Source: Fulvimarina sp. | GTDB lineage: Bacteria; Pseudomonadota; Alphaproteobacteria; Rhizobiales; Rhizobiaceae | Reading direction: 5' to 3' | DNA length: 64,000 bases | Assembly (NCBI GenBank): GCA_002700095.1 | Contig: PACL01000059.1 | Coordinates: 252,552-316,551 of the forward strand | Notes under the pieces: generated by a model | Told to the model about the DNA's origin: nothing | The model's database searches: none | Seen by the model: the letters and a program-made list of their open reading frames with translations, nothing else | Program-made: the position numbers and the translations under genes | Shown: positions 19,574 to 32,411 of the stretch, one piece after another | How the letters are laid out: the number at the start of each line of letters is the position of its first letter | Position numbering within the stretch: the stretch's first letter is position 1

Positions 19574-20449
19574 ATGTCTCTCAAAGCGAGACTGTCCCGG
19601 GACGGCGTCGTCGTCGCGCCCGGCATCTACGATCCGCTGACCGCGCTGATTGCGACTGAGGCCGGCTTCGAGGCGATGTATCTGTCGGGTGCCGCCGTCG
19701 CCTATACCCGGCTTGGCCGATCCGACATCGGCCTGTCGACCATGACCGAGATGGTCGAGACGATCCATCTGGTGCGCGACCGCGTCGACACGCCGATGAT
19801 CGTCGATGCCGACAACGGTCATGGCAACGCCCTCAACGTCCAGCGCACCGTGCGCATGTATGAGCGGGCCGGCGCCAACGCCCTGCAGCTGGAAGACCAG
19901 AGCCTGCCCAAGCGCTGCGGCCACCTGTCGGGCAAGAAGCTCGTCACATCCGGCGACATGGTCGGCAAGATCAAGGCGGCCGTCGATGCCCGCGCGAGCG
20001 ATGAAACGCTGATCATTGCCCGCACCGACGCCATCGCCGTCGAAGGCTTCGATGCCGCCGTCGAACGGGCCGAGCGTTACGCCGAGGCCGGTGCCGACAT
20101 TCTCTTCGTCGAGGCGCCGCGCAGCGAGGACGAGCTGTCGCAGGTGACGGCCCGCTTTGCCGCCCGCCTGCCGCTTCTCGCCAACATGGTCGAGGGCGGC
20201 GCGACACCGATGAAGAATGCCGACGATCTCGGCGCACTCGGCTTCAAGATCGTGATCTTTCCCGGCGGGATCGTGCGCGCCGTCGCCAGGGCCGCCGGCG
20301 ACTACTACCGCTCGCTCCACGAGCACCGCAGCAACACACCCTTCAAGGACCGCATGTTCAACTTCGACGAGCTGAACGACGTCATCGGCACGCCCGAGCT
20401 TCTGGCGCTCGGCACCCGCTATGAGGATCCGGACGGAGCCGCCGAATGA
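19574..20449 (+). CDS. Isocitrate lyase/PEP mutase superfamily protein
   Basis: 'APGIYDPLTALIATEAGFEAMYLSGAAVAYTRLGRSDIGL', 'IVDADNGHGNALNVQRTVRMYERAGANALQLEDQSLPKRCGHLSGKKLV'. Confidence 0.93.
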   Translation: MSLKARLSRDGVVVAPGIYDPLTALIATEAGFEAMYLSGAAVAYTRLGRSDIGLSTMTEMVETIHLVRDRVDTPMIVDADNGHGNALNVQRTVRMYERAGANALQLEDQSLPKRCGHLSGKKLVTSGDMVGKIKAAVDARASDETLIIARTDAIAVEGFDAAVERAERYAEAGADILFVEAPRSEDELSQVTARFAARLPLLANMVEGGATPMKNADDLGALGFKIVIFPGGIVRAVARAAGDYYRSLHEHRSNTPFKDRMFNFDELNDVIGTPELLALGTRYEDPDGAAE

Positions 20450-22182
20450 CCACGACCATCGATCCCGTCACCCTCGCCGTCCTCAAGGGCCGGCTGGAGC
20501 AGATCGCCGACGAGATGGACGCGACCCTCTGCCGCTCGGCCTTCAACCCGATCATTGCCGAGGCCAAGGATGCCTGCCACGGCCTTTACCATGCAACCAC
20601 CGGCGCGACCCTCGTTCAGGGCACCAGCGGCCTGCCGATCTTCGTCGGCGCCATGAGCTTTGCCGTCCAGGCGGTGATCGAAAAGGTGAACCGCGAGGGC
20701 GGCCTGCAAGCCGGCGATACCTTCATCTTCAACGACCCCTATTCCGGCGGCACCCATCTCAATGATTTCCGGCTGGTGCGCCCAGTCTTCCGCAACGGCG
20801 AACTCTTCGCCTGGCTCGCCTCGGTCGGCCACTGGCTTGACATCGGCGGCAATGTCGCCGGCGGCTATAACCCCAAGGCGACCGAGAGCTTCCAGGAAGG
20901 CATGCGCGTGCCGCCGGTGCGTCTGATGACGGCGGGCGTCCTGAACCAGGACATCGTCGACATCCTCAACGCCAATTCGCGGGTGCCGGATTCCAACTGG
21001 GGCGATCTCAACGGCCAGCTGAACGCCCTCGACCTCGGCGACCGGCGCTTTGCGGCGCTGCTCGACCAGTATGGCGAAACGGTCGTCGCTGCCGCCCTCG
21101 ACGCCTTCTCCGACCGGGCCGAAGCCCTGATGCGCGCGGCGATCGCCTCGCTGCCGGATGGCAGCTACTCCTTCGAGGACGTCCTCGACAATGACGGCAT
21201 CGTCGACGAGATGCTCACCGTCGCCCTCGACGTGACCATTGCGGGCGAAGAGATGACGCTGGACTTCTCGCGGTCCTCGCCGCCGGTGAAGGGCCCGATC
21301 AATATCTCCTACGCGACCTCCGTCGCGGCCTGCTACGTCGCCCTGAAGCACATCTTCACCGATGTGCCGGCCAATGCCGGCTGCCTCAGGCCGATCAAGT
21401 TCGTCATTCCCGACACCACGCTTCTGGCCGCAAAAGCGCCGAAGCCCATGGCCGGCTATACCGAGACCATCCTGCGGTTGATCGGCGTCATGCTGGGCGC
21501 TTTGGCAAAGGCCGACCCGGAGCGCGCGACAGCGGCGCCATTCGGCACGATCAACGCCCTGTCGATCGCCGGCAACCGCGCGGATGCCAGCCGCTTCGTG
21601 ATGTTCTCCTTCTTCGGCGGCGGCCTCGGTGGCAATCCCGAGAGCGACGGCCTGAACCACGCCAACAACCCGATCTCCACGGCGACGATCCCGCCGCTGG
21701 AAATCATGGAAGCCGCCTATCCCGTGATGTTCACGCAATGGGCGCTGAGGCCTGATTCCGCAGGGGCTGGGACACATCGCGGCGGCGTCGGCGCGGTCTA
21801 CGAGATCGAGATGCTGACCGACAGCGATGTCGCGCTGCTCGGCGAGCGCGGCAAGCGCGCGCCCTTTGGGGTCGCGGGCGGCATGGAAGCCGCGCTCAAC
21901 CAGTTCTCCTGGCAGGAGGGCGAGGAGACCTGCTCGCCGCCGATGGTCTCCAAAGTCACCGACGTGAAGGTGACGACAGGCAAGCGCCTGCGCCTCGAAA
22001 CCCCCGGTGGCGGGGGCTGGCGCGATCCGAAGCAGCGCCCGGCCGACCTCGTCTCCCGCGACGTGCGCCTCGGCTATGTCAGCCGCGAGGCGGCCCGCCG
22101 CGATTACGGCGTCGCCCTCACCGATGATCTCGGCGTGGACGAAGCCGCGACCACCAATCTCAGAAACGGAGCCACGGCATGA
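20446..22182 (+). CDS. hyuB: Hydantoinase B/oxoprolinase family protein
   Basis: 'DPVTLAVLKGRLEQIADEMDATLCRSAFNPIIAEAKDACHGLY', 'NDPYSGGTHLNDFRLVRPVF'; C-terminal 'RLETPGGGGWRDP'. Confidence 0.94.
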   Translation: MTTTIDPVTLAVLKGRLEQIADEMDATLCRSAFNPIIAEAKDACHGLYHATTGATLVQGTSGLPIFVGAMSFAVQAVIEKVNREGGLQAGDTFIFNDPYSGGTHLNDFRLVRPVFRNGELFAWLASVGHWLDIGGNVAGGYNPKATESFQEGMRVPPVRLMTAGVLNQDIVDILNANSRVPDSNWGDLNGQLNALDLGDRRFAALLDQYGETVVAAALDAFSDRAEALMRAAIASLPDGSYSFEDVLDNDGIVDEMLTVALDVTIAGEEMTLDFSRSSPPVKGPINISYATSVAACYVALKHIFTDVPANAGCLRPIKFVIPDTTLLAAKAPKPMAGYTETILRLIGVMLGALAKADPERATAAPFGTINALSIAGNRADASRFVMFSFFGGGLGGNPESDGLNHANNPISTATIPPLEIMEAAYPVMFTQWALRPDSAGAGTHRGGVGAVYEIEMLTDSDVALLGERGKRAPFGVAGGMEAALNQFSWQEGEETCSPPMVSKVTDVKVTTGKRLRLETPGGGGWRDPKQRPADLVSRDVRLGYVSREAARRDYGVALTDDLGVDEAATTNLRNGATA

Positions 22183-24260
22183 GCGCCCTCGGCACAAAAG
22201 CCCGCGGAACGACAGCGCTCGGCCGGATCGTCGGCGTCGATGTCGGCGGCACCTTCACCGATCTCTTCTACTATGACGAAGCGGCTGGCGCCTTCCGCAC
22301 GGCTAAGGTCTCGTCCAATCGAGGCGACGAGGCCGTCGGCTTCATCGAAGGCCTGAAGACCTTCGGCGCGCTCGCCGATCTTTCCTCGGTCGTCCACGGC
22401 ACCACCGTCGGCACCAATGCGCTACTCGAGCGCAAGGGCGCCAAGGTCGGGCTGATCACCACCGCCGGCTTCCGCGACGTCCTCGAAATGCGCCGGCGCG
22501 ACCGTCGCAACACCTGGGGCCTGTGGGGCGATTTCGTCCCTGTCGTCGATCGTGACTTCCGGCTGGAAGTCGGCGAGCGGGTGCTCGCTGACGGCACGGT
22601 CCGCGCCGAAGTCGATCCCGCCGAAGTGGAGGAGGTCGCCAGGGCGCTGCTCGCCAAGGGTGCGGAAGCCCTCGCCATCGTCTTCGTCAACGCCTATGCC
22701 AACCCGGCCAACGAGCTCGCCGCGCTGGAAGCGGCCAAGGCGGTCTGGCCGAACGACAACGTGACGGCCTCCAGCCAGATCCTGCCCGAGATCCGCGAGT
22801 TCGAGCGCACCTCCACGACGGTGCTCAACGCCTATCTCCAGCCGGTCGTCGGCGGCTATCTCGGCAAGCTCGACGCGGCGCTGAAGGCCGACGGCTTTTC
22901 CGGCAAGTTCCACATCGTCCAGTCGAATGGCGGCGTGATGTCGACCGAAACGGCCCGGCGGCTTCCAGTGCGCACCGCGCTCTCCGGCCCGGCGGCCGGC
23001 GTCATCGCGGCGGCGGCAATTTCGGAGGCTGCGGGCTTCCCGAATGTCATCACCGGCGATCTTGGCGGCACCTCCTTCGACGTGTCGCTGGTGGCGGACG
23101 GCAAGACCGCGCTTGCCGCCCAGACCACCATCGATTTCGGCCTCGTGATCCGCACCCCGATGATCGAGATCTCGACCATCGGCGCCGGCGGCGGCTCGAT
23201 CGCCCATGTGGATGCCGGCGGCATGCTGCAGGTCGGCCCGGAAAGCGCCGGCTCGCGGCCGGGCCCGGTCTGCTATGGCGGCGGCAACGACCGTCCGACG
23301 CTGACCGACGCCAATGTCGTTCTCGGCCGGATCAATGCGGCCAGGCCCATCGGCGGCAAGGGCAACCGCCTCGACGTCGAGGCCGCCAAGGCCGCCATCG
23401 CCCGCCACGTCGCCGAGCCGCTCGGTCTCGGGGTGATGGAAGCGGCGGAGGCGATCGTGCGCATCGCCGACGGCAAGATGGCCGGCGCGATCCGCCTCGT
23501 CTCCATCGAGCGCGGTCACGACCCGGCCAATTTCGCCGCCGTGCCCTTCGGCGGCGGCGGGGCGCTGCATGCCGGCGCGCTGATCAAGGATGTCGGGTTG
23601 AAGGCGGCGCTCGTCCCGCGCTTTCCCGGAGTGACCTCGGCGCTCGGCTGCGTCATCGCCGATGTGCGCCACGATCAGGTGCAGACGGTCAATCTGACGC
23701 TCTCGACCCTCAACGCCGATGCCCTCGGCGCCCGCATGATGGCCGAGGCCGCCGAGGCGCGGGCGGTGGTCGACGCCGCCGGGCTTTCGACTGAAAGCGT
23801 CGATGTCCAGTTCGAACTCGACATGCACTATCTCGGCCAGACCCACACCATCGCCGTGCCGCTGCCCGGCGATGCCGCCGAGGGACTAACGCAGGCCGAC
23901 GTGAAACAGGCCTTCGAAGCGGCCTATCAGAAGACCTTCAGCCGGCTTCTCGGCAACATCGATGCCCGCATCGTCAATCTGCGAACTGCCGCCATCGGCC
24001 GCCGTCCGCGCTTCGATCTCGCGACCCTGGCGCCCGAAGAGGGAGCCACCGTCGAGGCCGCAAGTCGCGACAGCCGTCCCGTCTGGTTCGACGGCGGCTG
24101 GCACGACACGGCCGTCTATGATCGCCTGGCGCTTCCCGTCGCCGCGGTGATCTGCGGCCCGGCGATCCTCGAACAGCCCGATGCCACCACCGTCGTCGAT
24201 CCCGACCTCGACGCTCGTGTCGACAGTTTCGGCAACCTCATCCTGGAGCGCAGACCATGA
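22179..24260 (+). CDS. hyuA: Hydantoinase A/oxoprolinase family protein
   Basis: 'IVGVDVGGTFTDLFYYDEAAGAFRTAKVSS', 'VHGTTVGTNALLERKGAKVGLITTAGFRDVLEMRRRDR'. Confidence 0.95.
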   Translation: MSALGTKARGTTALGRIVGVDVGGTFTDLFYYDEAAGAFRTAKVSSNRGDEAVGFIEGLKTFGALADLSSVVHGTTVGTNALLERKGAKVGLITTAGFRDVLEMRRRDRRNTWGLWGDFVPVVDRDFRLEVGERVLADGTVRAEVDPAEVEEVARALLAKGAEALAIVFVNAYANPANELAALEAAKAVWPNDNVTASSQILPEIREFERTSTTVLNAYLQPVVGGYLGKLDAALKADGFSGKFHIVQSNGGVMSTETARRLPVRTALSGPAAGVIAAAAISEAAGFPNVITGDLGGTSFDVSLVADGKTALAAQTTIDFGLVIRTPMIEISTIGAGGGSIAHVDAGGMLQVGPESAGSRPGPVCYGGGNDRPTLTDANVVLGRINAARPIGGKGNRLDVEAAKAAIARHVAEPLGLGVMEAAEAIVRIADGKMAGAIRLVSIERGHDPANFAAVPFGGGGALHAGALIKDVGLKAALVPRFPGVTSALGCVIADVRHDQVQTVNLTLSTLNADALGARMMAEAAEARAVVDAAGLSTESVDVQFELDMHYLGQTHTIAVPLPGDAAEGLTQADVKQAFEAAYQKTFSRLLGNIDARIVNLRTAAIGRRPRFDLATLAPEEGATVEAASRDSRPVWFDGGWHDTAVYDRLALPVAAVICGPAILEQPDATTVVDPDLDARVDSFGNLILERRP

Positions 24261-24859
24261 GCGCGATCCCCTCGATCGACAAACGCGCGCTGCTGCTGGT
24301 CGATCTCCAGAACGACTTCATCCATCCAGAAGGCGCCTATGCGCGGGGCGGGGCCAAGAGCGCCGACATCGCCGCACTGCCCGCCCGGCTGAAGCCGCTC
24401 GCCGACGCCTTTCGCGCCAAGGGCGGCCTCGTCGTCGCGACGCTCTTCACCCTTTCGCCCGGCCGCGGCGGCGAGCCGATCGTCTCGCCCCACTTAAAGA
24501 AACTGCGCCCCTTCATCGCCAAGGGCGATTTCCTGCCCGGCGGCTGGGGCCAGCAGCTGGTGGACGACCTCGCCCACGCCGACATCGCAGTGGAGAAAGT
24601 GGCCTTCTCCGCCTTCTACATGTCGCGTCTCGAATGGGTGCTGAGGAAATCCGGCATCGAGCATCTGACCGTCGGCGGCATCGTCACCAATGGCGGCGTC
24701 GCCTCGACCGTGCGCGAAGCCCATGTCCGCGACCTCGGTGTGACGGTGCTGGAGGACGGCTGCGCGGCCTTTTCGGAGAAGACCCATGACGAGGCGATCG
24801 CCGGGCTGCGATCGGTGGCGGAGATTTCGACGATCGAAAAGGTGATGGCCGGGCTTTGA
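24257..24859 (+). CDS. Isochorismatase-fold hydrolase-like protein (cysteine hydrolase family)
   Basis: 'RALLLVDLQNDFIHPEGAYARGGA', 'LTVGGIVTNGGVASTVREAHVRDLGVTVLEDGCAAF'. Confidence 0.87.
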   Translation: MSAIPSIDKRALLLVDLQNDFIHPEGAYARGGAKSADIAALPARLKPLADAFRAKGGLVVATLFTLSPGRGGEPIVSPHLKKLRPFIAKGDFLPGGWGQQLVDDLAHADIAVEKVAFSAFYMSRLEWVLRKSGIEHLTVGGIVTNGGVASTVREAHVRDLGVTVLEDGCAAFSEKTHDEAIAGLRSVAEISTIEKVMAGL

Positions 24860-25167: not shown

Positions 25168-25932
25168 ATGCCCACTCCGAAACGCGTTCTCGTCCTCGTG
25201 CCGTTTCCGATGGATGCCGACAATCTGGCCAAGCGCCGGGCGCAGATGTCGGCGGTGAAGCTCGGGCCGGACATCGCCTTCGACTTCCGCCCCGTCGCCA
25301 TCGCTCCGGTCAACTATGTCAGCCAGCAGGACATGCTCCTCGCCGACATCGGCATGGTGGAGGCCGGGCACCAGGCGGAAGCGGAGGGATACGATGCCGT
25401 GTGCATCGATACCGTCTCGGACAGCGGCATGACGGCGCTGCGGTCTGTTCTGTCCATCCCGGTCATCGGCGCGGGGCGCCATGCGATCCTGATGGCGCTG
25501 ACGCTCGGCGAGCGGTTCTCCTTCGTCTCCATGTGGGACCGCTGGCGGCCGCTCTACGAGAAGACGCTGGCCGAGCTGGGCCTCCAGGCGAAATGCGCCT
25601 CGATGCGCTCGGCCGATCTCGAGCCGAACAACCAGTCGCTGCTGTCGGGCCGCGAGGAGGAGGTGTTCCCGGTGCTGCTGGAGACCGCGAAGCGCTGCGT
25701 CGAGGAGGACCGCGCCGACGTCATCATCCTCGGCTCGACGACGATGCACGAGGCCCATGCCCATCTCGCCGCGAACCTTTCCGTGCCGGTGATCAATCCG
25801 GGGCCGCTGACCTACCGCCTCGCCGATGCGGCGATCCGCCTGAAGCTCAGCCATTCCAAGACCACCTATCCGACGCCGCTCACGCCGCGCCTCGAGCTCT
25901 TCGAGGCGATGGGCGCGGCGGTGCGGAACTGA
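25168..25932 (+). CDS. Aspartate/glutamate (hydantoin) racemase family protein
   Basis: 'GYDAVCIDTVSDSGMTALRSVLSIPVIGAG', 'VIILGSTTMHEAHAHLAANLSVPVINPGPLTYRLAD'. Confidence 0.85.
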   Translation: MPTPKRVLVLVPFPMDADNLAKRRAQMSAVKLGPDIAFDFRPVAIAPVNYVSQQDMLLADIGMVEAGHQAEAEGYDAVCIDTVSDSGMTALRSVLSIPVIGAGRHAILMALTLGERFSFVSMWDRWRPLYEKTLAELGLQAKCASMRSADLEPNNQSLLSGREEEVFPVLLETAKRCVEEDRADVIILGSTTMHEAHAHLAANLSVPVINPGPLTYRLADAAIRLKLSHSKTTYPTPLTPRLELFEAMGAAVRN

Positions 25933-25946
25933 GGGGAGAACGATCC

Positions 25947-26708
25947 ATGCCGAAGATCCTCGTCATCAATCCCTTTCCCCTCGACGAAGAGGGCGTGAAG
26001 CGCCGCGCCGCCCAGACCGGCCATGTCGAACTCGATCCTGACACCGAGCTCGTCTTCCGGCCGGTGAAGATCGGCCCGACCTCCTTCATGAGCCCGCATG
26101 ACTGGCTGATCATGGATCTCGGCATCTACGAGGCCGGCCTCACTGCCGAGGAGGAGGGCTTCGACGCCGTCGTCATCGACACCATGTCGGATTCGGGCAT
26201 GGCGGCGCTGCGATCGGTGCTGTCGATTCCCGTCGTCGGGCCGGGCAAGGCCTCGATGCTCTATGCGCTGACCCTCGGCGCGAAATTCTCCGTCCTTGCC
26301 CAGTGGAAACCGGCCTTGCCGCGCTATCGCAAAGTGATCCGCGACTACGGCTTCGAGCGGCAATGCGCCTCGGTGCGCTCCTTCGACGTCGAGCCGGACT
26401 TCATCAATCTGACCGAGGGCAAGGAGGACAAGACCTTTCCGATCATGCTCGACGTCGCCATGAAGTGTGTCGAGGAGGACGGGGCGGACGTGATCTGCCT
26501 GGGGTCGACCACCATGCATCAGGCCGCGGCCTATCTCGCCGAGCGTCTGCCGGTGCCGCTGATCAATCCCGGCCCGTTCAGCTACAAGCTCGCCGAAACG
26601 CTGATCGGTCTCGGCCTGACGCATTCCCGCCGGGCCTATCCTGTGCCAACCGAGCGCAAAGATGAACTGGTCCACGCGATCGTCGCGTCGGCGGCCAGGG
26701 CCGGCTGA
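25947..26708 (+). CDS. Aspartate/glutamate (hydantoin) racemase family protein, tandem paralogue of the preceding gene
   Basis: 'GFDAVVIDTMSDSGMAALRSVLSIPVVGPGKASMLYALTLG', 'VICLGSTTMHQAAAYLAERLPVPLINPGPFSYKLAE'; start MPKILVINPFP. Confidence 0.85.
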   Translation: MPKILVINPFPLDEEGVKRRAAQTGHVELDPDTELVFRPVKIGPTSFMSPHDWLIMDLGIYEAGLTAEEEGFDAVVIDTMSDSGMAALRSVLSIPVVGPGKASMLYALTLGAKFSVLAQWKPALPRYRKVIRDYGFERQCASVRSFDVEPDFINLTEGKEDKTFPIMLDVAMKCVEEDGADVICLGSTTMHQAAAYLAERLPVPLINPGPFSYKLAETLIGLGLTHSRRAYPVPTERKDELVHAIVASAARAG

Positions 26709-26863: not shown

Positions 26864-28864
26864 TCAGCAGCCGGTGGCCGAGAGCATCGCCTTGCTGCCG
26901 TCGGTGCCGTCGACCGTGACCGAGCAGCCATCGCCGAGATCGAGCGACTGGCCGCTCGCCACTTCCTTGCGGCCGGCGCCGACGACATAGAGCGTCGCAC
27001 CCCGGTCGGAGACGGCGGAGAGAAAGACCTTATGATCGCCGAAGGTCTTGGTCTGGCCGGTGCTGATGCCCTCGTCGGAAGCGGCAGCCGCGGCTCCACC
27101 GTCCGCTGCGCCAGGCGTCTGCGCCGCCGCCTGATCGCCCGTCGCCGCCTGGTCATTGGCCGGAGCGGCCGCCTGTGCTGCGGGAGCTTCACCAGCTGCG
27201 GGGGCCGGCTCTTGCGCCGCTGCCGCCGGCTGCGCATCGCTGCCAGCCGCCGCCTGATCCTGCGGCTGCGCGTTCTCGGCGCCCTCGGTGGCCGCGGCAT
27301 CGTTGCCGCCCTCGCAGCCCTCGGCCGAAAGCCGGGCGCTGCCGTTCTCGACGCCGTCCAGCGTCACGCTGCAGCCATTGCCGACGTCGACGCTCTGGCC
27401 GACCTCGACCCGCTGGCGACCGGCACCGCCGACGGCAAAGAGGGTGGCACCGTTCTCCTCGACGCCCGAGACGAAGATGCGGTTCTCGCCGAACACCGCC
27501 GTCTGGCCGGCCGAGAACGCGTCGCCGGAAGTGGACTGGTCCGCCGGGGCGGCCGCCTGCTGGCTGTCGTCAGAAGCCTGCTCGCCGGTCGAACCGGCAG
27601 ATGGCGCAGCGGCCGCCTGCTCGGCCCCGCCGGCCGCCTGCTCGCCGTTCTGCTGGCTTGCAGGGCTCGAAGGCTGGGCCTGTTCGGCTGGCGCTGCTGC
27701 GCCGGACTGCTGGGCCTCGCCCGAACCGCCGCCTTCGCAGCCGCTTGCCGACATCGTGGCGGCGTTGTCCGCGACGCTGTCGAGGGTGATGCTGCAACCG
27801 TTGCCGGCGTCGAGGCTCGAACCGGTCGCCACCTGCTGGCGCTTGCCGCCAACCACCATCAGCATCGCGCCATTCTCGTTGACGCCCGAAACGAAGACCC
27901 TGGTCTCGCCGAAGGTCGCGACGCCGCCGACCGGGGTCGAAGTGCCGCCGCCGGTGTTGCCGGAAGCCGCCGCCTGCTGCGAGCCCTCATCCTGCTGGGC
28001 CGCCTGACCCTCATTGGAGGCCTGGCCGGCAGCCTCGCCGGTGGCTGCCGCCGCCGCCGCGCCCTGGCCGGCGTTCTGTCCTGTGGCGGGGGCCTGCTGG
28101 CCGCCCTGGCTCTGGCTGTCCTGCTGCTGGCCGCCCGCGGTGGCAGCAGCCTGCTGGCCGGCCTCCGGGCTGCCCGAAGCGGCCGCCTGGCCGGAGCCGC
28201 CTTCGCAGCCCTCCGAGGTGAGGAACGCCGCGCCGGAGGCAACGCCGGACAGTGTCACGGAGCAGCCGTCGCCGACGTCGAGCGAGGCGCCCGACTGGAC
28301 TTCCTGGGCCTCGCCGTCGCCGGCAGCGATCATGGCGGAGCCGTCCGACACTTCGGAAACCGCGACCCGGCCTGAGCCGAAGATCGCCGACTGGCCGCCG
28401 ACGAGGATGGCGCCCGTCGGGCCGACCGATTGAACGAGCGAGGCCATGTCGCCGCCCGAGGATCCGCTCTGGCCGCCGGCGGACAGCCCGGAGACGCTCT
28501 CCTGGAGCTTGGTGATCTCGGCCTTGAGGTCCGCGATGCCCTGGCTGGTCGCGTCGGCGTTCTGGTCGGGCTGAGGCGCGACGGCCTCGGCGATCTGGCT
28601 CGTCCGGGTCTCGACGGTCTGGCCGAGCTGATCCAGCTGCGTCTTCATCTCGGCGAGGGCGCCGGAGACGGTCTGGTTGGTCTCGTCGACCTTGGTCGAA
28701 ACGGCCTGGACGTCCGTCTGCGTCGCTTCGATCGGGGCCCGCAACGAGGCGATGTCTTTGTTGACGTTCTCGCTGACGTCGTCGACGTCGGGCCCGAGCA
28801 GCCAGCCGATGAACAGGCCGACCACCAGAGCCACGACGATCGGAATGAATTTCGAGCCGCCCAT
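26864..28864 (-). CDS. Membrane-anchored four-repeat protein with Gln/Ala/Gly-rich linkers; unknown function
   Basis: Start taken as [37 protein letters not shown] (single TM), coiled-coil-like stalk, then four copies of an about 65-aa unit with '[46 protein letters not shown]'. Confidence 0.85.
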
Positions 28865-29160
28865 GCAATCTTCCTCCCGGGGAATTTCGTGCAGGTGCTG
28901 AGAGGAAGGGGGGCGGCGGAGGAAGTCAACCGCGCGAGGCGTCAAAGCAAGTTTTTTTGCGAGCACCCTTGCCGTTCGGCGGGCGGGCAAGATCTCTGTG
29001 CGATCGGGCCTGCGACAGGGCGCAAAGGCCATCGCTCGACGCGCCGCTCGGCCGACACCCGCCGCCGTCCGAAACGCCCGTGCCCTTGCGCCGCCCGGGC
29101 AAAGGCGGGATGAAGCCGGGCTGTCGATTGCCGCCGCACGGTGGGAGAGGAAACGATAAG

Positions 29161-31349: not shown

Positions 31350-31685
31350 GAAGCATCTCCTTGAGGATGGGGTCTCGCCGTAGCTTCCCCTGAAGGGAGG
31401 AGTTGCTTCGCATCGCGCGTGAACGTCGACAGCATTGTTGGCCGTGCATCGAGGCTGGAGAGGTTGGAAGGCTGAGAGACCGGCAAGGCGCCCATTGGCG
31501 GGGCCGGGCTGCTTGTCGCGAATCGACCGGCTTGGTAGCCTGCGGTCACAAGGGCCTCACCCGGGCCTCCCCCCTCCGATCGGGAAAGCATGCGTCATGC
31601 GGGGCTGGATCCGATTGTCGGACCGTCTGTCGTTCGAGCGCGCATGAGGAGGGATTGCGGAACCGGCTCGACCGAGGAGGTTTCG

Positions 31686-32411
31686 ATGCAACTGTCCGTC
31701 CCGATCTTTCGTCTGAAACGCCAGGCGCGGCTCCTGTCCCGCGAGGCGAGGATCCCGCTGGCCGAGGCCCTCGACCGCATGGCGCGGCGCGAAGGCTTTC
31801 GCAGCTGGAGCCTGCTCGCGAAGGAGGCGTCCCGCCGCCGACCGGCCGACCGGCTGCTGGCGGAGTTCGCGCCGGGCGAACTCGTGCTCCTCGCGGCGCG
31901 GCCGGGCCACGGCAAGACGCTCCTCGGCCTCGAACTCGCCAGCACTGCCGCCCGCCTCGGACGGGAGGCCTTCTTCTTCACCCTCGAAGAAACTGAAACC
32001 GGCATCCGGCAGCGCCTGCGCGATCTGGGTCTTGGGGATGACGGCGGCCGCCTCACGATCGATCCGTCGGACGCGATCTCGGCCGACCACGTCGTTTCCC
32101 GCCTCAGGGGAACGCCGGCCGGCGGCTTTGCGGTGATCGATTATCTGCAGCTTCTCGACCGCCGGCGCAGCGAGCCTGAGCTGGCGATCCAGCTGCGGGT
32201 GTTGCGCGACTTCGCAAAGGCGCGGGACGTGACGTTCGTGGCGCTGTCACAGGTCGACCGGTCGTTCGACGGGCTGGGCCGCCCGATGCCGGGGCCGTCC
32301 GACATCCGCCTGCCCAATCCGGTCGACCTCGGGCTGTTCTCGCAAGCCTGCTTCCTCCATGACGGCAGGCTGCATCTGCAGGCGCTCGGTGCCGCACAGC
32401 CACCCTCCTGA
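31686..32411 (+). CDS. DnaB/RecA-like ATPase (helicase C-terminal domain-like), stand-alone
   Basis: Walker A 'LVLLAARPGHGKTLLGLELA', 'GFAVIDYLQLLDRRRSEPELAIQLRVLRDFAKARDVTFVALSQVDRS' as in DnaB C-domain. Confidence 0.82.
   Translation: MQLSVPIFRLKRQARLLSREARIPLAEALDRMARREGFRSWSLLAKEASRRRPADRLLAEFAPGELVLLAARPGHGKTLLGLELASTAARLGREAFFFTLEETETGIRQRLRDLGLGDDGGRLTIDPSDAISADHVVSRLRGTPAGGFAVIDYLQLLDRRRSEPELAIQLRVLRDFAKARDVTFVALSQVDRSFDGLGRPMPGPSDIRLPNPVDLGLFSQACFLHDGRLHLQALGAAQPPS

Follow-up and report, generated by a model that had tools for sequence, protein, structure and literature searches.

The gene at positions 26864-28864 of the window, that is, of the whole 64,000-nucleotide stretch of Fulvimarina sp. 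DNA that was analysed, encodes a membrane-anchored protein carrying four small cysteine-paired domains, or beads. It belongs to a real, conserved and unnamed family that is vertically inherited and lineage-restricted, and whose domain is common to distant relatives. The coding sequence is a single open reading frame of 666 residues plus stop on the minus strand, with its ATG at 28864, as found from the frame and its translation. The coordinates and the outline of the protein in the preliminary description are correct, and the gene is present as a single copy in its own genome. That genome is Jiella-like, and the named relatives closest to it are Aurantimonas sp. 22II-16-19i and Jiella spp. A long antisense frame at 27032-28375 (+) overlaps it. 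This frame was treated as a by-product of the GC-rich coding sequence and not as a real gene because conservation follows the minus frame.

After a short N-terminus comes the single transmembrane segment that had been proposed for the protein. Residues 6-24 (28793-28849; this and all of the following features of the protein are on the minus strand) form the sole strong hydrophobic segment, with a Kyte-Doolittle value of 2.6 against a maximum of 1.2 elsewhere, and residues I7, P8, A12, V15, G16, G20, W21, G24 and the following P25 are invariant in the 19 proteins of the family that were compared. Residues 25-130 (28475-28792) are predicted to be a helical, coiled-coil-like stalk; a model of the N-terminal region shows the transmembrane helix followed by stalk helices 42-61, 66-94 and 103-129 at low confidence, and coiled-coil families match the region weakly. 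A conserved extension of unit 1, containing SVGPTGAIL, occupies residues 137-155 (28400-28456). It is modelled as a helix (137-147) and then a strand (152-155) preceding the unit, and its residues G148, G151, A152 and L154 are invariant in the 19 proteins. The four units follow at residues 157-220 (28205-28396, Cys201/Cys220), 313-376 (27737-27928, Cys357/Cys376), 453-517 (27314-27508, Cys498/Cys517) and 603-666 (26867-27058, Cys647/Cys666). The first is of a distinct, membrane-proximal subtype, the third is the one that was modelled and the fourth makes a Cys the C-terminal residue of the protein. Between them lie linker 1 (residues 221-312, 27929-28204), linker 2 (377-452, 27509-27736) and linker 3 (518-602, 27059-27313), all recognised by their composition, low hydrophobic content and low identity between orthologues.

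The units are 64-65 residues long, in agreement with the four repeats of about 65 residues noted at the outset, and cysteine occurs only inside them. Pairwise scores of unit against unit lie 19-32 SD above those of shuffled units; thus the repeat is not a product of chance. An alignment of all 72 units from the 19 proteins shows the full motif throughout, with one Gly and both Cys invariant, so that the two invariant cysteines first seen in this one protein are a disulfide-compatible pair in 72/72 units. Each of the 19 proteins has exactly two Cys per unit and none elsewhere (144 Cys, 72 units), although this count is partly by construction since the units were located from the Cys pairs. All but two of the proteins (17/19) terminate exactly on the Cys of the last unit.

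Conservation is distributed very unevenly along the chain. Identity to orthologues is 50-97% in the units and 60-97% in the first 40 residues, compared with 30-91% in the stalk and 21-75% in the linkers, and the VILMF content of the linkers is 1-5% against 23-25% for the units. Linkers that drift and are poor in VILMF, set between conserved units, indicate folded beads on flexible spacers. The position of the linkers is kept while their composition follows the lineage (Gly/Gln/Ser in Jiella, Ala/Pro in Aurantimonas and Antarcticirhabdus); the variable, Gln/Ala/Gly-rich linkers of the preliminary description are therefore true of this protein but not of other genera.

Orthologues are found in the Aurantimonadaceae, a marine family, in Jiella, Aurantimonas, Fulvimarina, Mangrovicella and Antarcticirhabdus. 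All 10 genomes of the genus have one, as do six others from the wider GTDB family; orthologues also occur in 18 named records of the Aurantimonadaceae, which are partly the same genomes as those of the genus and family sample. The 398 sampled genomes of the order gave own-genus matches and otherwise only weak ones, one of which (L052/L061) is real, and no further relatives were found in 385 genomes of the class. A marginal match in the wider GTDB family (L017) was inspected and is not a homologue. The weak matches from the class-wide search (L017, L050, L051, L053, L054, L100-L103 and L131), mostly unrelated genes or antisense frames, were rejected on inspection or judged to be due to chance. 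At all 18 of the named-genome loci the divergent neighbour is pdxJ, which marks the gene as an inherited core gene rather than cargo; a brief pattern check of 1.5-kb flanks saw no pdxJ-adjacent unit protein outside the Aurantimonadaceae.

The number of units is four in 10/10 genomes of the genus. Elsewhere it is two (G045 and L013), three (several Aurantimonas, Mangrovicella and Fulvimarina endophytica), again four, or five (Fulvimarina pelagi). In a tree of the 72 units the membrane-proximal ones, a subtype marked by a conserved extension at the N-terminus, fall into a single group with strong support (100/97), and many of the others cluster by position across species; recent duplications can also be seen, as in units 2 and 3 of L036 (support 99/97). 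Copy number thus changes between genera (2, 3, 4 or 5) and not between close strains, and the suggestion that it varies from strain to strain is not supported by a number fixed at four within the genus.

The unit is outside the named families, as had been supposed. Scans of Pfam and NCBIfam found nothing over the units, only coiled-coil noise at residues 24-130, and searches of PDB sequences with phmmer and with a profile gave no significant match to the unit. AlphaFold2 nevertheless folds unit 3, given the 72 aligned units, with a mean pLDDT of 94.6, as a seven-strand beta domain (strands at 5-9, 12-20, 23-28, 34-38, 42-46, 49-57 and 60-66 of the model); the unit is thus predicted to be folded, with conserved cysteines, and not disordered. 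Strands 49-57 and 60-66 make the last hairpin, and their register would place the two Cys, residues 49 and 68 of the model, opposite each other at its base. Foldseek against the PDB and viral models returned no match at E ≤ 0.001: the best PDB match has E 0.3 and one unnamed viral model E 0.0024. The weak resemblances are to small beta barrels, KOW/SH3-like, CsrA and the S-layer DUF1608 domain. As the PDB fold matches are all non-significant, no ligand class can be transferred to the unit.

Relatives of the unit do exist outside the family. The order-wide profile search matched a 1293-codon frame in L061 with nine Cys-paired units that also ends on a Cys. When compared by hhalign, the alignment of the window units (A3) scores 34.8 against A5, with a maximum of 16.7 in 100 column shuffles, and the two unit families, compared profile to profile, reach a probability of 91% and P of about 1e-6 (A3 against A8 also gives 91%). 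By these profiles the window unit is a homologue of a Cys-paired domain that occurs in other Hyphomicrobiales. A8 was also searched against 289 genomes of the class, a set without the genomes known to match, and gave nothing. Four remote relatives are known: two nine-unit proteins (L061:4812-8627 and L128:6676-10086), a fusion of one Cys-paired unit with a cytochrome c domain (L130:5234-6055, minus strand) and a coiled-coil protein that ends in a single unit (L129:2527-3330, minus strand). The two Cys are 18-19 residues apart in most of their units. L129 has the layout of the window protein, with a short transmembrane segment, coiled coil, Ala/Ser/Thr-rich linker and one C-terminal unit; its transmembrane segment is encoded in the adjacent frame, perhaps because of an assembly error, in a genome that is 84% complete. 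The relatives differ from the window protein in their gene neighbourhoods and low direct sequence identity, L061 and L128 further in that their nine units are packed without long linkers, and L130 in its fusion.

Genes associated with PQQ-alcohol dehydrogenase adjoin three of the four relatives. Those beside L130 are a PQQ-ADH ABC binding protein (TIGR03863) and a beta-propeller (TIGR03866), and those beside L129 are members of TIGR03864 and TIGR03861 (PQQ_ABC_ATP and PedC). L128 adjoins a cytochrome c', a YncE-like propeller, VWA and DUF58 genes, a PedC-type permease (TIGR03861) and PQQ_ABC_ATP (TIGR03864). L061 likewise adjoins cytochrome c', YncE-like propeller and VWA genes, its propeller scoring below the TIGR03866 cut-off. 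The window gene lies between a racemase/hydantoinase-type cluster and pdxJ, not among PQQ-ADH ABC, beta-propeller or cytochrome c genes, and a look at the PQQ_ABC_ATP loci in three genomes of the Aurantimonadaceae found none with a unit gene. The window family is thus a branch that has moved to another locus or has evolved separately. We tentatively propose, at somewhat less than even confidence, that the unit represents an undescribed superfamily of disulfide-stapled beta-domains of the alphaproteobacterial periplasm, used as a single C-terminal bead on a membrane-anchored coiled coil, fused to cytochrome c, or packed nine to a protein next to quinoprotein genes; in the Aurantimonadaceae it would form a string of 2-5 beads serving as an adjustable, multivalent inner-membrane tether.

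The most likely mechanism, to which we give about an even chance, is that of a periplasmic multivalent tether with structural disulfides. The protein would be bitopic in the inner membrane, N-in and C-out, its periplasmic part consisting of the helical stalk and then 2-5 beads, here four, that would be small beta-barrel or sandwich domains on disordered linkers. Each bead would hold one structural disulfide, joining the first residue of the penultimate strand to the residue just after the last strand. The stalk would keep the string of beads off the inner membrane, and the flexible linkers would allow the beads to stretch across the periplasmic space. Through many weak contacts the repeated beads could bind one ligand, for which the candidates are peptidoglycan, a polymer, or a protein of the outer membrane or periplasm. 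Anchor, folded units and linkers are borne out by hydropathy, model and composition, so that, strain-level copy variation apart, the cell-envelope beads-on-a-string protein of the preliminary description stands; from these features we infer the periplasmic location, the disulfides and the multivalency. Cysteines numbering twice the units, with none elsewhere in 19/19 proteins, fit disulfide formation in an oxidising compartment. Envelope tethers on linkers in general combine an anchor, a flexible spacer and repeated folded domains. By analogy, the window protein resembles them in its anchor, its Ala/Pro- or Gly/Gln-rich spacer and its repeated domains; the likeness is architectural, and the domain itself is not in Pfam.

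A known system to weigh against this mechanism is the secretin-binding beta-sandwich called the HR domain, which occurs in GspC, GspB and PilP (PMC3169554, PMC9239104). In GspC it has six strands in two three-stranded sheets (PMC3169554), and GspB/OutB, with one transmembrane segment and a periplasmic HR domain, scaffolds the secretin to the inner membrane and peptidoglycan (PMC9239104). The window unit is likewise a small all-beta domain, lying, as in GspC and GspB, behind a single transmembrane segment; its strands run in a similar succession, the seven of the model following an order compatible with that of GspC HR, with one extra strand at the N-terminus. Its profile scores 16.8 against a GspC HR profile built from six sequences, above all of 100 column shuffles (maximum 14.2), but with a probability of just 5-10%. 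Neither the window protein nor any of the 72 units matches Pfam T2SSC (PF11356) at E ≤ 1, no GspC or PilP entry is among the top 50 PDB fold matches, the genome has no T2SSC match and the conserved neighbour is pdxJ and not a secretion operon, with no secretion genes adjacent. The low probability and the lack of a Pfam T2SSC match, of a genomic T2SSC and of adjacent secretion genes are the reasons why we do not file the unit as an HR domain, a domain of type II secretion and type IV pili. The window protein also differs in its tandem copies on linkers and its invariant Cys pair. The unit may work in a similar way, but that it docks a secretin or other outer-membrane assembly to the inner membrane as these domains do seems unlikely. 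A redox role is in our view also improbable, whether through Cys pairs that alternate between dithiol and disulfide or through service to a periplasmic oxidation system, as may be the case for the remote relatives. The position of the relatives might point to such a role instead of a tether, given the cytochrome c fusion inside a PQQ-ADH-associated cluster, the cytochrome c' and propeller genes beside the nine-unit proteins (one of them also with PedC permease and PQQ_ABC_ATP) and the PQQ_ABC_ATP and PedC genes beside the coiled-coil relative. However, the Cys of the unit are 18-19 residues apart across a hairpin, a spacing typical of structural staples, and do not form a CxxC pair, and the Aurantimonadaceae gene adjoins pdxJ, with no unit gene found at the PQQ ABC loci in the three genomes mentioned above.

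Two further possibilities dispense with a periplasmic ligand or with the periplasm. Restriction to one family and fast-changing linkers would suit a lineage-specific structural spacer, its ligand-free units forming a stiff, protease-resistant rod, but the strong and position-specific conservation of the units (unit 1 as against the terminal type) suggests surfaces under selection and makes this quite unlikely. An adhesin or a repeat protein of a surface-exposed or S-layer-like kind, its beads outside the cell, would be in keeping with weak matches of three units to Pfam S_layer_N (best E 0.021) and with the best partial structural resemblance of the unit, which is to DUF1608 in an S-layer protein of Methanosarcina (TMq 0.67, E 1.3). 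These matches are all at chance level, and the N-terminal signal anchor, with no features of outer-membrane export, would keep the protein in the inner membrane, so that we regard a surface location as very improbable.

The domain merits a name, since it is missing from Pfam and NCBIfam, is marked by a clear sequence signature and is modelled with confidence, and the adjacency of its relatives to genes of PQQ-dependent alcohol oxidation is a first functional lead for it. Should the tether mechanism hold, the family would be a scaffold of the envelope that alters its reach and valency in evolution by gaining beads and changing its linkers, and natural 2-, 3-, 4- and 5-bead versions exist for comparison.

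Upstream of the gene, a block of ~37 bases (28925-28961, minus strand; gcAAAAAAACTTGCTTTGACGCc..GCGGTTGAC), 61-97 bases before the start codon, is nearly invariant in the 10 genus-level genomes within intergenic DNA that has otherwise diverged. Judged by this conservation it is probably a promoter or regulatory site; a sigma-70 consensus was not found in it. On the other flank of the gene, two large genes (20446-24260) resemble hydantoinase B and A, which are candidate identities, and are followed by an isochorismatase-family gene (24257-24859) and two tandem genes of the Asp/Glu/hydantoin racemase family (25168-25932 and 25941-26708, +). Together they look like a hydantoin- or oxoproline-type catabolic cluster, whose adjacency to the bead gene is not conserved in relatives. 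At 31590-32411 (+) the window also encodes a short DnaB_C-domain ATPase without the rest of the replicative helicase (NCBIfam PRK05973, over cut-off), which is found in the pdxJ-tetR neighbourhood of some relatives only.
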